A stretch of DNA of 64,000 nucleotides, taken from positions 1,204 through 65,203 of the forward strand of contig NZ_SNYN01000021.1 in assembly GCF_004363075.1 (NCBI RefSeq). Direction: 5' to 3'. Position 1 is the first letter of the stretch. Each line of letters begins with the position of its first letter. Source of the DNA: Actinorugispora endophytica (GTDB lineage Bacteria; Actinomycetota; Actinomycetes; Streptosporangiales; Streptosporangiaceae). Shown here piece after piece: positions 12,697 to 18,801 of the stretch. Under the pieces are notes generated by a model, which was given only the letters and a program-made list of their open reading frames with translations, was not told where the DNA came from and made no database searches. A program made the position numbers and the translations under genes.

Positions 12697-13902
12697 ATGA
12701 AGGTTCCCACCGCGTTCAGCGCGCGGCTCCCGAGACTCCGTCGCGCCAGGCCCGACGGAACGAACGGCGTTGTCGCCCCGGTCCGGGCGGACCGCCGCAC
12801 CAAGAATCTCACCAAACGGCTCAGACCCGGCGACATCGCGGTCATCGACCACGTCGACATCGACCGGGTGAGCGCCGAGGCCCTCGTCGAGTGCGGGGTC
12901 TCGGCGGTGCTGAACACCGCCACGAGCATCAGCGGCCGGTACCCCAACCTCGGGCCGCAGCTCATCGTCGAGGCGGGGATCCCACTGGTCGACGAGGTCG
13001 ACCCGGCGGTCTTCTCCCGGTTGGAGGAGGGCGAGCGGCTCCGGTTGGAGGGCGGGATCCTGCTGCGCGGCGACACGGTCGTGGCCAGGGGCGTCGAACA
13101 GGACGAGGCGTCGGTCGAGGCGGCCATGGCCGAGGCGCGCGCCGGACTCGCGGTGCAGCTGGAGGCGTTCGCCGCCAACACCATGGAGTACCTCAAGCGC
13201 GAGCGGGCGCTGCTCCTGGAGGGGGTCGGCGTACCCGACATCGCCACCTCGATCGAGGGCAGGCACGTCCTGATCGTGGTGCGCGGCTACCACTACCGCG
13301 AGGACATCGCGACGCTGCGCTCCTACATCCGCGAGTACCGGCCGGTCATCATCGCGGTGGACGGCGGCGCCGACGCGCTCCTGGAGGCCGGGTACCGGCC
13401 CGACATCATCGTCGGCGACTTCGACTCGGTGTCCGACCGGGCGCTGACCTGCGGCGCGGAACTGGTGGTGCACGCCTACCGGGACGGGCGGGCCCCCGGT
13501 CTCCAGCGCGTCACCGACCTGGGCCACCAGGCCGTCGTCTTCCCCGCGACCGGGACCAGCGAGGACGTGGCGATGCTGCTCGCCGACGACGCGGGCGCCG
13601 CCCTCATCGTCGCGGTCGGCACGCACGCCACCCTCGAGGAGTTCCTGGACAAGGGCCGCGCGGGGATGGCCAGCACCTTCCTCACCCGCCTGCGGGTCGG
13701 CGGCAAGCTCGTCGACGCCAAGGGCGTCAGCCGCCTCTACCGCAGCCGCATCTCGCCGTGGACGCTGCTGCTGCTCGCGGGGGCCTGCCTGCTCACCATC
13801 GTCGTCGCGGCCTACAGCTCCCCGGCCGGGCAGGTCTACATGACCTTCCTCGCCGTGCGCTGGGACGCGTTCCTCTACTGGCTCACGGGACTTCTCGCGT
13901 GA
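12697..13902 (+). CDS. steA: SteA-like septation protein
   Basis: A 401-residue protein of the actinobacterial SteA family (Rv1697 type). It combines a soluble domain with thiamine-pyrophosphokinase-like features (VIIAVDGGADALLEAGYRPDIIVGD... near 220-250) and a C-terminal membrane segment (about 350-372, WTLLLLAGACLLTIVVAA). In Corynebacterium SteA and SteB act together in cell separation and envelope sensitivity. The stop overlaps the steB start by 4 bp, so they are coupled. ATG 12688 is an alternative start three codons upstream. Confidence 0.88.
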   Translation: MKVPTAFSARLPRLRRARPDGTNGVVAPVRADRRTKNLTKRLRPGDIAVIDHVDIDRVSAEALVECGVSAVLNTATSISGRYPNLGPQLIVEAGIPLVDEVDPAVFSRLEEGERLRLEGGILLRGDTVVARGVEQDEASVEAAMAEARAGLAVQLEAFAANTMEYLKRERALLLEGVGVPDIATSIEGRHVLIVVRGYHYREDIATLRSYIREYRPVIIAVDGGADALLEAGYRPDIIVGDFDSVSDRALTCGAELVVHAYRDGRAPGLQRVTDLGHQAVVFPATGTSEDVAMLLADDAGAALIVAVGTHATLEEFLDKGRAGMASTFLTRLRVGGKLVDAKGVSRLYRSRISPWTLLLLAGACLLTIVVAAYSSPAGQVYMTFLAVRWDAFLYWLTGLLA

Positions 13903-14927
13903 TCGACTTCCGTTACCACCTGGTCTCCATCGTCGCGGTCTTCCTCGCGTTGACCGTCGGCATCGTGCTGGGCACCACGATGCTGCAGGACCCGCTGCTC
14001 AACGCCCTGAAGACCGAGACCGCGCAGCTGCGCGAGCAGAGCGAGCAGCTGCGGACCGAGAAGGACCTGGCCGAGAAGCTGAACGCCGGTGACGCCCAGC
14101 TCATCGCCGCGTACGCCGACGCCATGCTCGACGGGCGGCTCAACGGGCTGCGGGTCGTCGTGGTGGAGTCGCCGGGGGTGGACGCGGCGTCCCGCGACGC
14201 CGTCCTCGACGGGATCCGGCGCGCGGGGGGGACCGTCGGCGGGCGGCTGCTCCTGACCGACAGGTACCTCGACCCGAGCGAGTCCAGCTTCGTCGACGAG
14301 GTCACCGACCAGCTCGGGGCCGGCCTGGACCTGCCGCAGGGCAACCCGTACGAGCGGGCCGGGGCCGAGATCGCCCAGGCCGTGCTCGCCGTGGACGAGG
14401 ACGCGCCCCAGGGGGTGGCGCGCAGGGCGGGCGACGACTTCGACGGGGAGGCGGTCCTGGCCGGGTTCACCGAGGCGGGGCTGCTCACCACGCAGGGCCG
14501 GCCCGCGTCGGGCGCCGACGCGGCCCTGGTGCTGGCCCCCGCCGAGCCCTTCGCGTCCGCCGACTCCCAGGAGGGGGAGGCGGTCACCCCGCCCGGCAAC
14601 GCGGTGGTGCTGGCGCTGGCGCGCGCCTTCGAGCAGGCGGGCAGCGGCACCGTCCTGGCCGGTTCGCCCGCGGCGGACGGCCGGACGGGCGTCGTGCGCC
14701 AGGCGCGCGCGGAGGAGGCCCGCTTCAGTACCGTCGACACGGTCGACACCCAGGCGGGCGCCGTCGTCGCGGTGCTCGTGCTCGCCATGACCGAGGAGGG
14801 CCGTGACGGCCACTACGGGATCGGCGCCGGGGTCGACGGCTTCCTGCCCGACCCGCTGCCGGCCGTCAGTGAACCGTCCCCCGAGGCCAGTCCCGAGACC
14901 AGCCCGTCCAGCAGAGACGACTCATAG
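13899..14927 (+). CDS. steB: SteB/MctB-like membrane protein
   Basis: A 342-residue protein of the copper transporter MctB/SteB family (Rv1698 type). It begins VIDFRYHLVSIVAVFLALTVG, a single N-terminal membrane anchor, followed by a coiled coil (residues 45-75, Gln/Glu/Leu-rich) and an extracytoplasmic alpha/beta domain. The tail is Ser/Pro/Glu-rich. SteB interacts with SteA in septation, and older literature linked the family to copper. GTG 13899 overlaps the steA stop. Confidence 0.88.
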   Translation: MIDFRYHLVSIVAVFLALTVGIVLGTTMLQDPLLNALKTETAQLREQSEQLRTEKDLAEKLNAGDAQLIAAYADAMLDGRLNGLRVVVVESPGVDAASRDAVLDGIRRAGGTVGGRLLLTDRYLDPSESSFVDEVTDQLGAGLDLPQGNPYERAGAEIAQAVLAVDEDAPQGVARRAGDDFDGEAVLAGFTEAGLLTTQGRPASGADAALVLAPAEPFASADSQEGEAVTPPGNAVVLALARAFEQAGSGTVLAGSPAADGRTGVVRQARAEEARFSTVDTVDTQAGAVVAVLVLAMTEEGRDGHYGIGAGVDGFLPDPLPAVSEPSPEASPETSPSSRDDS

Positions 14928-14940
14928 AAAGTACCCGGAC

Positions 14941-15963
14941 ATGCTCCCAGGTCCTTCCCCCAGACCGCGGACACGCCCCGAGGGCGCGGCGGACACCTCC
15001 GAGCGGCCGCTCCCGGCCCCTCCGTCGCAGACGGGGGACGGACGCGCGCCGACGCCTCCGCCCGGGGCGGCCCGCGCCGTGCGCGGCCTCGCGGGCGCGG
15101 TGGTCGGCGCGATCGCGGCCCGGGGCATGTACGCGGCCCTGACCAGCGGGTGGGGACCGGGTTCGGGGAGCGGGCCGGTCGGCGCCCGGTGGAACCGCGT
15201 CAACTTCCGGGGTGAGCGGGTCACCCTGTTGGAGGGCCCCGCACTGGCCGCCGGGGCGTGCACGGGAACCGTGCTCTCGCCCGGCCTGCCGGTCAACCTG
15301 CGTATGGCGACGGTGCTGGCGGGCGGCGGCGCGGCGGCCTTCGGGGCCTACGACGACCTGTCGGGGACGGCGGGCTCCCGGGGGTTCCGGGGGCATCTGG
15401 GCGCCCTGGCCCGCGGTGAGGTGACGACCGGGGCGGCCAAGATCCTGGGGATCGGCGCGACCAGCGCGGCCGCCGCGGTGGCGGTGGCCCGCGCGCCGGT
15501 GGACGTGCTGGTCAACAGCGCGCTGATCGCGGGCAGCGCCAACCTGCTCAACCTGTTCGACCTGCGTCCGGGCCGCGCGACCAAGGTGGCGCTGCTGGTC
15601 GGCGCCCCCGCCCTGGCGCATCCCGTCGCGGGGCCGATCGCGGCACCGGCCCTGGGCGCGGCCGCCGCTCTGCTGCCCGAGGACCTGGGGGAGCGGGCGA
15701 TGCTCGGCGACTCGGGGGCCAACGCCCTCGGCGCGATGCTGGGGGTGGCCGCCGCCGCGAGCCTGCCGCGGTCCGCCCGCCTGGGCCTGCTCGCCGGTGT
15801 GGTCGCGCTGACCGCGGCGAGCGAGTTCGTGAGCTTCACCAGGGTCATCGCCGAGACCCCGCCGCTGCGCCGCCTGGACGAGCTGGGCCGCCGCTCCACG
15901 CCGTTCCCCGCCGGGCACCGGCCCCTGCCGGCCGACCTGCTGGCGGCGCCGAGCGCGGAGTGA
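14941..15963 (+). CDS. MraY/WecA-like polyprenyl-phosphate sugar-1-phosphate transferase
   Basis: A 340-residue polytopic membrane protein with a 45-residue Pro-rich cytosolic head. Three family landmarks are visible: the AYDDLSG acidic pair (about residue 137), NLLNLFDLRPGR (about 201-212) in place of the usual NxxNxxDGLDG block, and GDSGANALGAMLG (about 260-272). These mark the family that transfers a sugar-1-phosphate to a lipid carrier, but the motifs diverge from true MraY and WecA. It starts 14 nt after steB and precedes a flippase and a glycosyltransferase, suggesting the first step of a lipid-linked saccharide. Confidence 0.75.
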   Translation: MLPGPSPRPRTRPEGAADTSERPLPAPPSQTGDGRAPTPPPGAARAVRGLAGAVVGAIAARGMYAALTSGWGPGSGSGPVGARWNRVNFRGERVTLLEGPALAAGACTGTVLSPGLPVNLRMATVLAGGGAAAFGAYDDLSGTAGSRGFRGHLGALARGEVTTGAAKILGIGATSAAAAVAVARAPVDVLVNSALIAGSANLLNLFDLRPGRATKVALLVGAPALAHPVAGPIAAPALGAAAALLPEDLGERAMLGDSGANALGAMLGVAAAASLPRSARLGLLAGVVALTAASEFVSFTRVIAETPPLRRLDELGRRSTPFPAGHRPLPADLLAAPSAE

Positions 15964-16057
15964 CTTCCTCCTCGGTCCAGGCCCTCCCCGAGGGCCGCCC
16001 GAGCCCCGGACCCCGGGACCGGCGGAAGCGCCGGCCCGGTGCGGGGAGGGAGCGGGG

Positions 16058-17701
16058 ATGAGCGGCCGGGGCGCGGGGCGCGGGTGGGTACGGCGAGTGA
16101 GCGCCTCGCTGGCGGGGGCCGCGCTGCTCATAAGCGTCGTCACCGTCTTCGCGCGGGTCGCCGGGTTCGGCCGGACCCTCGTCTTCTCCCAGACGGTCGG
16201 GGAGAACTGCCTGGGCACCGCCTACGTCACCGCCAACCAGCTGCCGACCGTCCTGTTCGAGGTCGTCATCGGCGGCGCCCTGTCGGGGATGGTCGTCCCG
16301 GTTCTGGCGACCGCCGCCAGCCGGGGCGACGCCGGGCAGGTGCGCCGCACCGCCTCGGCGCTCGTCACCTGGGTGGTACTGGCCGCCGTCCCGCTGAGCC
16401 TGCTCCTGGCGGCCGCGTCCGCCCCGGCCGCCCTGCTCCTGCTGTCCGGGACGCGGGGGTGCGACAGCGCCGACCTGCTGGCGCTCGCGACGCGCTTCCT
16501 GGTGGTCTTCGCCCCGCAGATCCTCTTCTACGGTCTGGCCGCGGTGCTGTACGGCGTCCTCCAGGCGCACCGCCGCTTCCTCGCGCCGGCACTGGCCCCT
16601 CTGGTGTCCAGCCTCGTGGTCATCGCCGCCTACGTCGCCTTCGTGCCCCTGAGCGGGGGGCGGGCCGACGACATCGGCGCCCTGCCCGCCGCCGCGGAGC
16701 TCACCCTGTCCCTGGGCACCACCGCGGGGGTGGCCGCGCTGTTCCTCACCGCGCTCGTGCCCGTCGCCCGGCTGCGCCTGGGGCTGCGCCCCACCCTGTC
16801 CTTCCCGCCCGGCATCGCCCGCCGGGCGCGCTCCCTGGCGGTGGCCGCGCTGCTCCCGCTGGTCGCCATGCAGCTGAGCCTGCTGCTGTCGATGTGGCTG
16901 GCCAACAACGGGGGCGGCGGAGGCACGGGGGTGTTGTACAGCTACGCCTGGGCCCTGTTCACCCTGCCCTACGGGATCGTCGCGGTCCCCATCGCGACCA
17001 GCGCCTTCACCGCGTTGTCGGTGCACCACGGCGAGCGGGAGCAGGGGGCCTTCGACCGGGTGCTCTCGACGGGGGTCCGCGCCTGCCTCATCGCGACCGC
17101 GGGGCCCGCCGCCGCGCTCGCCGCGGCGGCCTTCCCGCTGTCACTGGTGTTCGCCGGGGAGACGGCTCCGCAGCTGGCCCGGGCGCTGCCCGCCTACGCT
17201 CCCGGGATCGTCGCCTTCGGGACGGCCGCCCTGCTCAGCAGGGCGCTGTACGCCTCCCACCACGGCAGGGCCGCGGCCCTGGCCCAGGTCGCGGGCTGGC
17301 TGGCGGTGACGGTCGGCTCCGTGGCCGGCGTCGCGCTCGCCCCGCCCGGCTGGACGGTCGCCGCGCTGGGAGCGGGCACCTCGCTGGGGCTGGGGATCGG
17401 CGCGCTGCTGCTGGTCGCGGCGGTGCTGCGCGCGCGGGGGCGGTCCGCCTTCGCCGCCGCGGGCCGGACCGTCGCGGCCTGCGCGCTCGGCACGGGGCTG
17501 GGGTACGCGTGCGGGGCGGGCGTCGCCGCTCTGGCGCCCACCGGTTCGACACCGGCGGCCGCGGGGGCGGCGGTGCTCAGCGGGACCGCCGCGTTGGCGG
17601 GATACGGACTGGCCGTCGCGCTGATCGACTCCAAGGCGCTGCGCGCGGCCCTGACGCGCCGGATCGGCGGCGCGTCCACCGACGAGGGGAGAACGGGTTG
17701 A
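16058..17701 (+). CDS. MurJ/MviN-like lipid-linked saccharide flippase
   Basis: A 547-residue polytopic protein of the MviN/MurJ (MOP) family. VFARVAGFGRTLVFSQ near the start and the FAPQILFYGLAAVLYGVLQAH block are characteristic, with roughly 14 hydrophobic segments. It lacks the long kinase-like extension of mycobacterial MviN. Genomes of this type normally carry another murJ near the origin, so this copy may export a different lipid-linked product. The stop overlaps the downstream glycosyltransferase start by 4 bp. Confidence 0.82.
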   Translation: MSGRGAGRGWVRRVSASLAGAALLISVVTVFARVAGFGRTLVFSQTVGENCLGTAYVTANQLPTVLFEVVIGGALSGMVVPVLATAASRGDAGQVRRTASALVTWVVLAAVPLSLLLAAASAPAALLLLSGTRGCDSADLLALATRFLVVFAPQILFYGLAAVLYGVLQAHRRFLAPALAPLVSSLVVIAAYVAFVPLSGGRADDIGALPAAAELTLSLGTTAGVAALFLTALVPVARLRLGLRPTLSFPPGIARRARSLAVAALLPLVAMQLSLLLSMWLANNGGGGGTGVLYSYAWALFTLPYGIVAVPIATSAFTALSVHHGEREQGAFDRVLSTGVRACLIATAGPAAALAAAAFPLSLVFAGETAPQLARALPAYAPGIVAFGTAALLSRALYASHHGRAAALAQVAGWLAVTVGSVAGVALAPPGWTVAALGAGTSLGLGIGALLLVAAVLRARGRSAFAAAGRTVAACALGTGLGYACGAGVAALAPTGSTPAAAGAAVLSGTAALAGYGLAVALIDSKALRAALTRRIGGASTDEGRTG

Positions 17702-18801
17702 ACGGGTTGCGCGTCGCGCTGACACTGGCCACCAGCGGCGGGGGCGTGGGCAACCACGTGCGTTCGCTGTGCGCCGGGCTGGTCGGGCGAGGCCACCGGG
17801 TCGTGGTCGTCGGACCGGCCTCGACCGAGGAGCGGTTCGGCTTCACCGCGGCGGGGGCGCGCTTCGCCCCTCTGGAGGTGGGGGGCCGGCCGAGCCCCTT
17901 CGCCGACGCCGCGGCGCTGGTACGGCTGCGCGGCCTTCTCAGGGGCGCCGACGTCGTGCACGCGCACGGGGTGCGCGCCGGCGCGCTGGCGGCGCTGGCC
18001 CGGCCCTCCGCGCCGCTCGCGGCCACCCTGCACAACGCTCCCCCCTCGGGGAGCGGGGCCGACGCGCTGCTGTTCGGCCTGCTCGAACGCGTTCTGGTGC
18101 GCCGCGCCGATCTGGTCCTGGGGGTCTCCGGCGACCTGGTGGAGCGGATGCGCGCGCGCGGTGCGCGGCGGACCGGGCGGGCGCTGGTGCCCGCTCCGGC
18201 CATGGCCTCCTCCGGCCGGGACCCGGCCGAGCTGCGCGCCGAACTGGGTGTCGAGCCGGGTCGGCCGCTGCTGGTGACCGTGGCCCGGCTGGCCGGGCAG
18301 AAGGGGCTGCCGGTCCTGCTGGACGCGGCGGGGCGCTGGGCGGCGCGCACCCCGCCGCCGCTGGTGGCGGTCGCCGGGGACGGGCCCCTGCACGGGCGGC
18401 TCGCGACGCGGATCTCCGCGGGCTCCCTGCCGGTGCGCCTGCTCGGACGTAGGACGGACGTCGCCGACCTGCTCGCCGCGGCCGACGTGTTCGTGCTGGC
18501 GAGCGTGTGGGAGGGCCAGCCCCTGGTGATCCAGGAGGCCCTGCGTGCCGGGCTGCCCGTTGTGGCCACCGATGTGGGCGGGGTCCCGGACCTGGTGGGG
18601 GACGCCGCGCTCCTGGTGCCCTACGGCGACCCCGCCGCGCTGGCCGACGGAGTGGCGCGGATCCTCGACGACGGCGCGCTCGCCGCCCGGATGCGGGTCC
18701 GCGCCCGCGCGGCTGCCGGGGCGCTCCCCGTTCCGGGGGACGACGCCGACCAGGTCCTGGACCTCTACGCGGAGGTCCTGTCCGGCAGTCACCCAAGGTG
18801 A
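17698..18801 (+). CDS. Family 4 glycosyltransferase
   Basis: A 367-residue GT-B fold enzyme. The N-terminal acceptor domain shows SGGGVGNHVRSL and DVVHAHGVRAG. The C-terminal donor domain shows VARLAGQKGLPVLLDA, VAGDGPL and the E-x7-E nucleotide-sugar motif around VWEGQPLVIQEALRAGLPVVATDVGG. TTG 17698 is chosen as start because it overlaps the flippase stop (TTGA) and has GAGGGGAG 7 nt upstream. It is probably co-translated with the flippase; the sugar and acceptor are unknown. It ends the ste unit. Confidence 0.85.
   Translation: MNGLRVALTLATSGGGVGNHVRSLCAGLVGRGHRVVVVGPASTEERFGFTAAGARFAPLEVGGRPSPFADAAALVRLRGLLRGADVVHAHGVRAGALAALARPSAPLAATLHNAPPSGSGADALLFGLLERVLVRRADLVLGVSGDLVERMRARGARRTGRALVPAPAMASSGRDPAELRAELGVEPGRPLLVTVARLAGQKGLPVLLDAAGRWAARTPPPLVAVAGDGPLHGRLATRISAGSLPVRLLGRRTDVADLLAAADVFVLASVWEGQPLVIQEALRAGLPVVATDVGGVPDLVGDAALLVPYGDPAALADGVARILDDGALAARMRVRARAAAGALPVPGDDADQVLDLYAEVLSGSHPR

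Follow-up and report, generated by a model that had tools for sequence, protein, structure and literature searches.

A putative divergent sugar-1-phosphate transferase linked to the division genes steA and steB in the Actinomycetota

In a 64,000-nucleotide stretch of the Actinorugispora endophytica genome (contig NZ_SNYN01000021.1, positions 1,204 to 65,203; hereafter the window), the cell-division genes steA and steB stand directly ahead of a gene for a putative polyprenyl-phosphate sugar-1-phosphate transferase, here given the working label PGT, and of genes for a MurJ-like flippase and a glycosyltransferase of family GT4. Together, steA, steB and PGT make up an old unit of the Actinomycetota, and the functional tie of the transferase to steAB that a first-pass annotation of the window had suggested is well supported by co-occurrence, fixed gene order and the joint decay of motifs. 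Each part comes from a superfamily already known; what appear to be new are their combination, the transferase subfamily and the way the SteA pocket is linked to PGT, and among the open-licence papers covered by a literature search none was found that describes the gene set. It is proposed, with a probability of about one half, that the SteA pocket is matched to a lipid-linked pathway headed by PGT, and ties that pathway via SteB to cleavage of the cell wall.

Background

SteAB is reported to be located at the septum, and SteB to bind RipA (PMC12977500, PMC6705760, PMC12338722). The SteA of Corynebacterium glutamicum was stabilised by UDP and GDP, but not by ADP or triphosphates (PMC12977500), and the same paper, from 2026, predicts that the SteA pocket binds carbohydrate, poses the ligand as an open question and places steAB beside spo0A in Clostridia. 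Neither "glycosyltransferase" nor "MurJ" appears in the main text of PMC12977500, nor does "glycosyltransferase" in that of PMC6705760. Compared with the SteAB-RipA cell-separation system of C. glutamicum and Mycobacterium tuberculosis, the window encodes full family members of SteA and SteB in the same order after recN; it differs in that the SteA pocket is intact and that a lipid-linked-sugar gene set follows steAB.

Co-occurrence and gene order of SteA and PGT

Across the phylum, 246 genomes were sampled, with PGT scored above 80 bits and SteA above its cut-off (150 bits for NF040608). PGT was present in 95 and SteA in 102; both were present in 92, PGT alone in 3, SteA alone in 10 and neither in 141. 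All three PGT-only genomes belong to family f5, which is probably Streptomyces-like, while seven of the ten SteA-only genomes belong to family f6, probably mycobacterial, and two others (G250 and G308) are doubtful. Wherever the two genes lie on one contig they are on the same strand with PGT downstream (82 of 82 pairs, 0.9-14.2 kb apart); ten further pairs fall on different contigs. A sample of 296 genomes from the class gave 92 with both, 14 with PGT only (all f5), 61 with SteA only and 129 with neither. Within the window's order, a single-sequence search found PGT in 90 of 101 genomes; the 11 without a match comprise six with SteA, one of which retains a 41-codon PGT remnant, and five without. 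Five genomes of the window's own family (G030, G055, G066, G070 and G087) gave no match to SteA or PGT.

Gene order was first assessed in 80 named loci (56 from Streptosporangiales, 20 from seven other orders and 4 unplaced), which were picked by PGT similarity, so that they overstate constancy, and which may share a species with the sampled genomes. Among those reaching far enough, steA is upstream in 73 of 74, steB upstream in 74 of 74, the MurJ-like gene downstream in 72 of 73 and the GT4 gene downstream in 69 of 72. Examples of loci with all five genes are L105, L069 and L122, from species of Kribbella, Nonomuraea and Streptomonospora. In 20 loci taken from PGT-bearing genomes of the class sample, the corresponding counts are 20/20, 20/20, 16/16 and 4/4. 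The phylum sample contributed 40 PGT loci, with steA upstream in 32 of 39 and steB likewise in 35 of 39; f5 accounts for three of the loci missing them, and in the others the genes lie at or past the edge of the fetched stretch. The MurJ-like gene is directly downstream of PGT in just 4 of 39 of these loci, all four from class members, and the GT4 gene in 7 of 38, namely the four class members and three f5 loci. Elsewhere in this set, 10 loci have the MurJ-like gene ahead of PGT and in the same orientation, 5 have it inverted (L155, L156, L161, L162 and L172, with GT4 inverted too in L155 and L172), and in 21 of 40 it was not found. Based on these counts, the five-gene arrangement is not accidental, and the first-pass view of the five genes as one set has to be amended: the steA-steB-PGT core is phylum-wide, but since the MurJ-like and GT4 genes follow directly only in class-level relatives (GT4 also in f5), these two are companions of the core. 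As for the septation genes being "fused" to the pathway, the genes are adjacent, but there is no protein fusion.

Several individual loci depart from the pattern. L088 and L145 keep steA-steB-PGT-GT4 and have no MurJ-like gene between PGT and GT4. In the f5 loci L157, L163 and L185, PGT and GT4 adjoin recN, with no steA, steB or MurJ-like gene, and 13 of the 14 f5 genomes have a PGT match that stops short at columns 259-262 of 286; the C-terminal segment they lack may be a site of contact with SteA. Three loci from deep lineages (L150:7234-9525, L170:7113-9344 and L156:10517-12340) have an open reading frame of 608-764 residues directly before PGT, after GT4 where that is present. It has no Pfam match at an E-value of 0.001, and the start chosen for the L156 frame may be spurious.

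The SteA pocket and its decay where PGT is absent

SteA and SteB of the window exceed the cut-offs of their families (the NF040608 equivalog, and the gathering cut-off of 25.6 bits for PF11382, MctB; Table 1), and by family SteB is the membrane-anchored extracytoplasmic partner of SteA. SteA consists of an N-terminal domain, a nucleotide domain like those of thiamine pyrophosphokinase (TPK) and HPPK, in which the motif VDGGAD...GDFDSVSD is intact, and C-terminal membrane helices. Its AlphaFold 2 model (pLDDT 83, pTM 0.60) has a VIA Z-score of 29.6 to M. tuberculosis SteA (9hmy) and also matches archaeal HPPK (8sd5, Z 15.4), TPKs (Z 7.8-12.2) and a Maf glycosyltransferase (Z 11.5). A SteA profile compared with the Protein Data Bank (PDB) likewise finds archaeal HPPK (E 7e-8) and, weakly, TPKs, and there is a Pfam TPK_catalytic match, the only one in the genome. 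In TPK, Mg2+ is held by four aspartates, D78, D113, D115 and D142 in Candida albicans (PMC2515308). Three of these align with D222, D241 and D243 of SteA, and D290 is, by motif, the likely counterpart of the fourth. SteA thus shares with TPK, archaeal HPPK (MptE) and Maf glycosyltransferase the fold of residues ~168-348 and the metal motif. However, it scores 41.3 bits against the TPK equivalog TIGR01378, under the cut-off of 76.4, has no match to the second, thiamine-binding TPK domain at an E-value of 0.001, probably carries a methionine (M293, placed by motif) at the TPK lysine position, and has an extra N-domain and membrane helices. That N-domain (residues 14-127) is similar to the swivelling domain of rifampin phosphotransferase (Z 9.9) and less so to pyruvate phosphate dikinase (Z 6.7), with no obvious catalytic histidine at the usual place as judged by eye.

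The state of the pocket follows the presence of PGT. An intact GDxDS motif is carried by 134 of 134 SteAs from genomes or loci with PGT, compared with 3 of 33 from genomes without it. For these counts and for column retention, L066-L185 were labelled PGT-bearing on the grounds that they had been retrieved through a PGT match; 31 of the 61 SteA-only genomes of the class sample were fetched; three SteAs were set aside since the absence of PGT is doubtful, owing to a contig end (L202 from G250, L239 from G391) or to two PGT pieces (L203 from G308); and L205 (G110), where a contig end truncates SteA and PGT lies on another contig, was counted as PGT-less in a test of residues 217-247 and removed from the 134 and 33. 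The motif reads GDFDS in the window, GDPDQ in M. tuberculosis and GNPTG in C. glutamicum; judged by these residues, the SteAs of the latter two species are decayed forms.

Loss is uneven across the protein. Among the 80 SteA columns at least 97 % conserved in PGT-bearing rows, the polar columns of the nucleotide domain (n=24) are retained in PGT-less rows at a mean of 0.56, compared with 0.77 for its non-polar columns (n=32; p 0.001), and the nucleotide domain is retained less well than the N-domain (n=24, mean 0.85; p 0.002). S244, S288, Y261, K319 and H259 are among the columns most often lost, and D222, D241, D243 and D290, all at least 97 % conserved with PGT, are partly lost without it. 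A recN tree was built for 103 rows, namely the window and 102 of the 153 that were eligible, rows with too little recN being left out and the PGT-bearing L066-L145 being thinned to every fourth. On this tree, which was built quickly, has some long branches and yields change counts that do not separate gain from loss, PGT changes state 10 times, 6 of them forced by starred branches. Since deep lineages bear PGT, the PGT-less lineages have probably lost it. In 200 random pairings giving 6 independent pairs, the motif changed the same way as PGT in 4-6 pairs and the opposite way in 0 (median p 0.0625, range 0.031-0.125).

This pattern could instead reflect inherited neighbourhood alone, in that recN-steA-steB-...-PGT-pyrG might be an old housekeeping stretch whose genes have no common function. 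Indeed, TlyA-NADK-recN precede steA in most loci reaching that far, a CTP-synthase-like gene follows PGT in 5 of 6 deep loci viewed (one confirmed by Pfam), and one deletion can remove neighbouring genes together. Shared position, however, does not explain why the SteA pocket decays where PGT is gone yet steA-steB still stand behind recN, and in deep lineages SteA and PGT share a strand with 5-14 kb of other genes between them; neighbourhood as the sole cause is thus unlikely.

The conserved pocket could also be that of an enzyme. SteAs of PGT-bearing lineages might be pyrophosphokinase-, nucleotidyltransferase- or Maf-glycosyltransferase-like enzymes that supply or consume the substrate of PGT, with the division role secondary and the SteAs of M. 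tuberculosis and C. glutamicum pseudoenzymes. The fold matches given above, the PGT-dependent conservation of the four aspartates (D290 being matched by motif) and the position of SteA as the sole TPK catalytic domain match in the genome all fit such an enzyme, but so might they fit a sensor, which could need the same residues. The methionine that probably occupies the TPK lysine position, and the failure of ADP and triphosphates to stabilise C. glutamicum SteA (PMC12977500), albeit a decayed form, also speak against catalysis, and we regard this alternative as rather unlikely.

PGT as a divergent member of the PNPT superfamily

The window PGT has no match to Pfam or NCBIfam at an E-value of 0.001 or below; PF00953 reaches it at E 0.17 and 12.3 bits, below the cut-off of 27, and matches 15 of the 31 rows of the homologue alignment (E <= 0.01). 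When a profile of the 31 homologues is compared with the PDB, MraY chains match at E 0.06-0.1 and the motifs are in register. Structure prediction had been proposed as a check in the first-pass annotation; the AlphaFold model (pLDDT 88.3, pTM 0.84) has MraY or DPAGT1 as its top 18 PDB entries (Z 18.0-23.1 over 221-251 residues; VIA Z 23.1 to MraY 9zno), with the next fold at Z 5.1, and a Foldseek search agrees. This match and the invariant aspartates show that PGT has the fold and motifs of the PNPT superfamily. The motifs of the protein are DD (137-138), K166, N203-x2-D206-LRPGRAxK214, GD256 and PxLRxLDxxGR, and residues G134, D137, D138, H151, K166, N203, D206, P209, G210, M253, G255, D256 and S297 are invariant in 31 of 31 rows. 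D137, D138 and D256 align with the DD and MGD of MraY, the (M/L)GD motif of the superfamily being kept. With D206, all the aspartate positions that are catalytic in the superfamily are retained.

In fold and in its DD, N-x2-D and GD motifs, PGT is therefore like MraY, WecA/TagO and DPAGT1, but it departs from all of them elsewhere. Where MraY has DGLDG, PGT has DxxPG in 31 of 31 rows and DLRPGR in 21, and the position of the His loop appears to be taken over by PxLRxLDxxGR. Neither HHH nor DGLDG occurs in any of the 31 homologues, which bears out the first-pass observation that the motifs are unlike those of MraY and WecA. The genome's own MraY has NLTDGLDGLA and PLQHHFE, and both the His-rich loop (HLHHR) and DGLDG are present in its own WecA-like protein. 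By structure, PGT is probably a distinct subfamily of polyprenyl-phosphate sugar-1-phosphate transferases, with a predicted catalytic activity.

It might instead be catalytically dead and serve SteAB as a scaffold or as a sensor of the lipid carrier, as could be read from the absent His loop, the proline in place of the second aspartate of DGLDG and the score below the Pfam cut-off. However, D137, D138, K166, N203, D206 and D256 are invariant in all 31 rows, from many families, which would be unusual for a dead enzyme, and in class-level relatives PGT is accompanied by a glycosyltransferase and a flippase. A non-catalytic PGT is accordingly quite improbable.

The companion genes and the housekeeping copies

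The MurJ-like protein exceeds the cut-off of 27.4 bits for PF03023 (Table 1), which places it in the same MOP family as the lipid II flippase MurJ, but its 149.3 bits against TIGR01695 are under the MurJ equivalog cut-off of 235.55, and the genome has two further MurJ-type proteins. It was considered whether the protein is unable to carry lipid II, given residues R52, D269, R270 and E273 of E. coli MurJ; this idea was dropped, as the genome's two other MurJ-type proteins are, by eye, also without those residues. The GT4 protein has the GT-B domains and the E-x7-E motif (E270-x7-E278) of retaining glycosyltransferases, and E270, E278, H86, H88, G13 and G14 are invariant over 16 sequences.

The cluster is not the housekeeping set, a possibility that the first-pass annotation had named as fatal to its view. 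The genome has its own MraY (L035, located after murF) and its own WecA-like protein (L034), and contig 1 carries two further MurJ-type genes next to each other; these names rest on motifs. Lipid-linked oligosaccharide pathways of the pgl, teichuronate or enterobacterial common antigen type begin with a PNPT enzyme and a GT4 enzyme. The window set has in common with them a transferase, a glycosyltransferase and a flippase; it is instead tied to a division regulator, and no polymerase or ligase gene lies inside the five-gene set.

Proposed function

In the established enzymology of these families, the nucleotide set free is UMP for a PNPT enzyme and UDP or GDP for a GT4 enzyme. In the proposal favoured here, PGT would move a sugar-1-phosphate from a nucleotide sugar onto polyprenyl phosphate at the cytoplasmic face, GT4 would add a second sugar, and the MurJ-like protein, or a housekeeping flippase where it is absent, would export the lipid-linked saccharide. 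SteA would bind, and perhaps convert, a nucleotide or nucleotide sugar that the pathway uses or releases. Via SteB, it would license a wall hydrolase of the NlpC/P60 type and so couple the separation of daughter cells to the local status of lipid carrier or glycan; the direction of the signal is our suggestion. Upon loss of PGT, the SteA pocket would lose its ligand and decay, while the link between SteAB and the hydrolase would stay. In short, the link to PGT is well supported, and SteA is proposed to sense or process a nucleotide of the PGT pathway. More tentatively, and rather less likely than not, ancestral SteA may have been more than a division adaptor: it would have served a dedicated septal pathway for a lipid-linked glycan, with a new PNPT subfamily at its head, as a metal-dependent nucleotide enzyme or sensor. 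That pathway would have been present early in the phylum and lost in the lineages of the model organisms, where SteA would be a pseudoenzyme.

A number of observations weigh against the proposal. In the class sample, 61 of 153 SteA genomes show no PGT, hence SteAB works without it, and family f5 keeps PGT without SteA in 14 sampled genomes. Three PGT-less SteAs still have GDxDS: L217, whose genome holds the PGT remnant, L220 from that genus, and L226, the first two being from the window's own family; the three SteAs set aside (L202, L203 and L239) all read GDMDS and, if counted as PGT-less, would raise the intact fraction to 6 of 36. In PGT-less SteAs, retention of the four metal aspartates lies at 0.55-0.94, and residues 217-247 as a whole are lost no faster than other invariant SteA columns (p 0.49). 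A motif-specific effect was therefore rejected in favour of decay of the pocket domain, which might in part be general relaxation. The Fisher p values ignore phylogeny, and the tree-based sign test alone is borderline. Finally, it is a decayed SteA, that of C. glutamicum, for which UDP and GDP binding was observed, and nucleotides gave no clear result with M. tuberculosis SteA (PMC12977500).

If the more tentative reading of ancestral SteA is true, cell separation in many actinomycetes would be gated by the glycan of that pathway. The PGT pathway offers a concrete candidate for the source of the SteA ligand, for which intact-pocket SteAs should be preferable to the M. tuberculosis or C. glutamicum forms, the residues to change being those named above. 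Additionally, a transferase subfamily is brought to light whose window member falls below the Pfam and NCBIfam cut-offs and which tracks a division regulator across the phylum.

The locus and its surroundings

The five genes are tightly packed, as the first-pass annotation had stated: the open reading frames and the sequence confirm overlaps at 13899-13902 and 17698-17701, and the successive spacings from steA to GT4 are -4, 13, 94 and -4 bases.

Table 1. Features of the steAB-PGT locus in the window (positions in the window)
Feature	Position	Strand	Evidence
steA	ATG 12697 to TGA 13902	+	NF040608, 516.3 bits
steB (MctB family)	GTG 13899 to TAG 14927	+	PF11382, 262.2 bits
PGT, candidate PNPT-superfamily polyprenyl-phosphate sugar-1-phosphate transferase	ATG 14941 to TGA 15963	+	AlphaFold model, conserved columns
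MurJ-like MOP flippase	ATG 16058 to TGA 17701	+	PF03023, 166.6 bits; PDB MurJ, E 1e-18
GT4 retaining glycosyltransferase	TTG 17698 to TGA 18801	+	PF00534/PF13692
SteA residues 221-247, TPK-type metal motif whose state follows PGT presence	13357..13437	+	GDxDS counts

In the window, the order of genes is TlyA, NAD kinase, recN, steA, steB, PGT, MurJ-like, GT4, a TerC gene and uvrA, the flanking genes TlyA and uvrA being presumably what their names say, as assigned by eye from the sequence. Searches for tRNA, tmRNA and Rfam families at the gathering score gave no match in the window, nor did Rfam at an E-value of 1 upstream of the TerC gene. The genome, of 5.25 Mb in 44 contigs, encodes 6 LCP proteins and 8 NlpC/P60 proteins. 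Allosalinactinospora and Marinactinospora are among the closest named PGT loci to that of the window.

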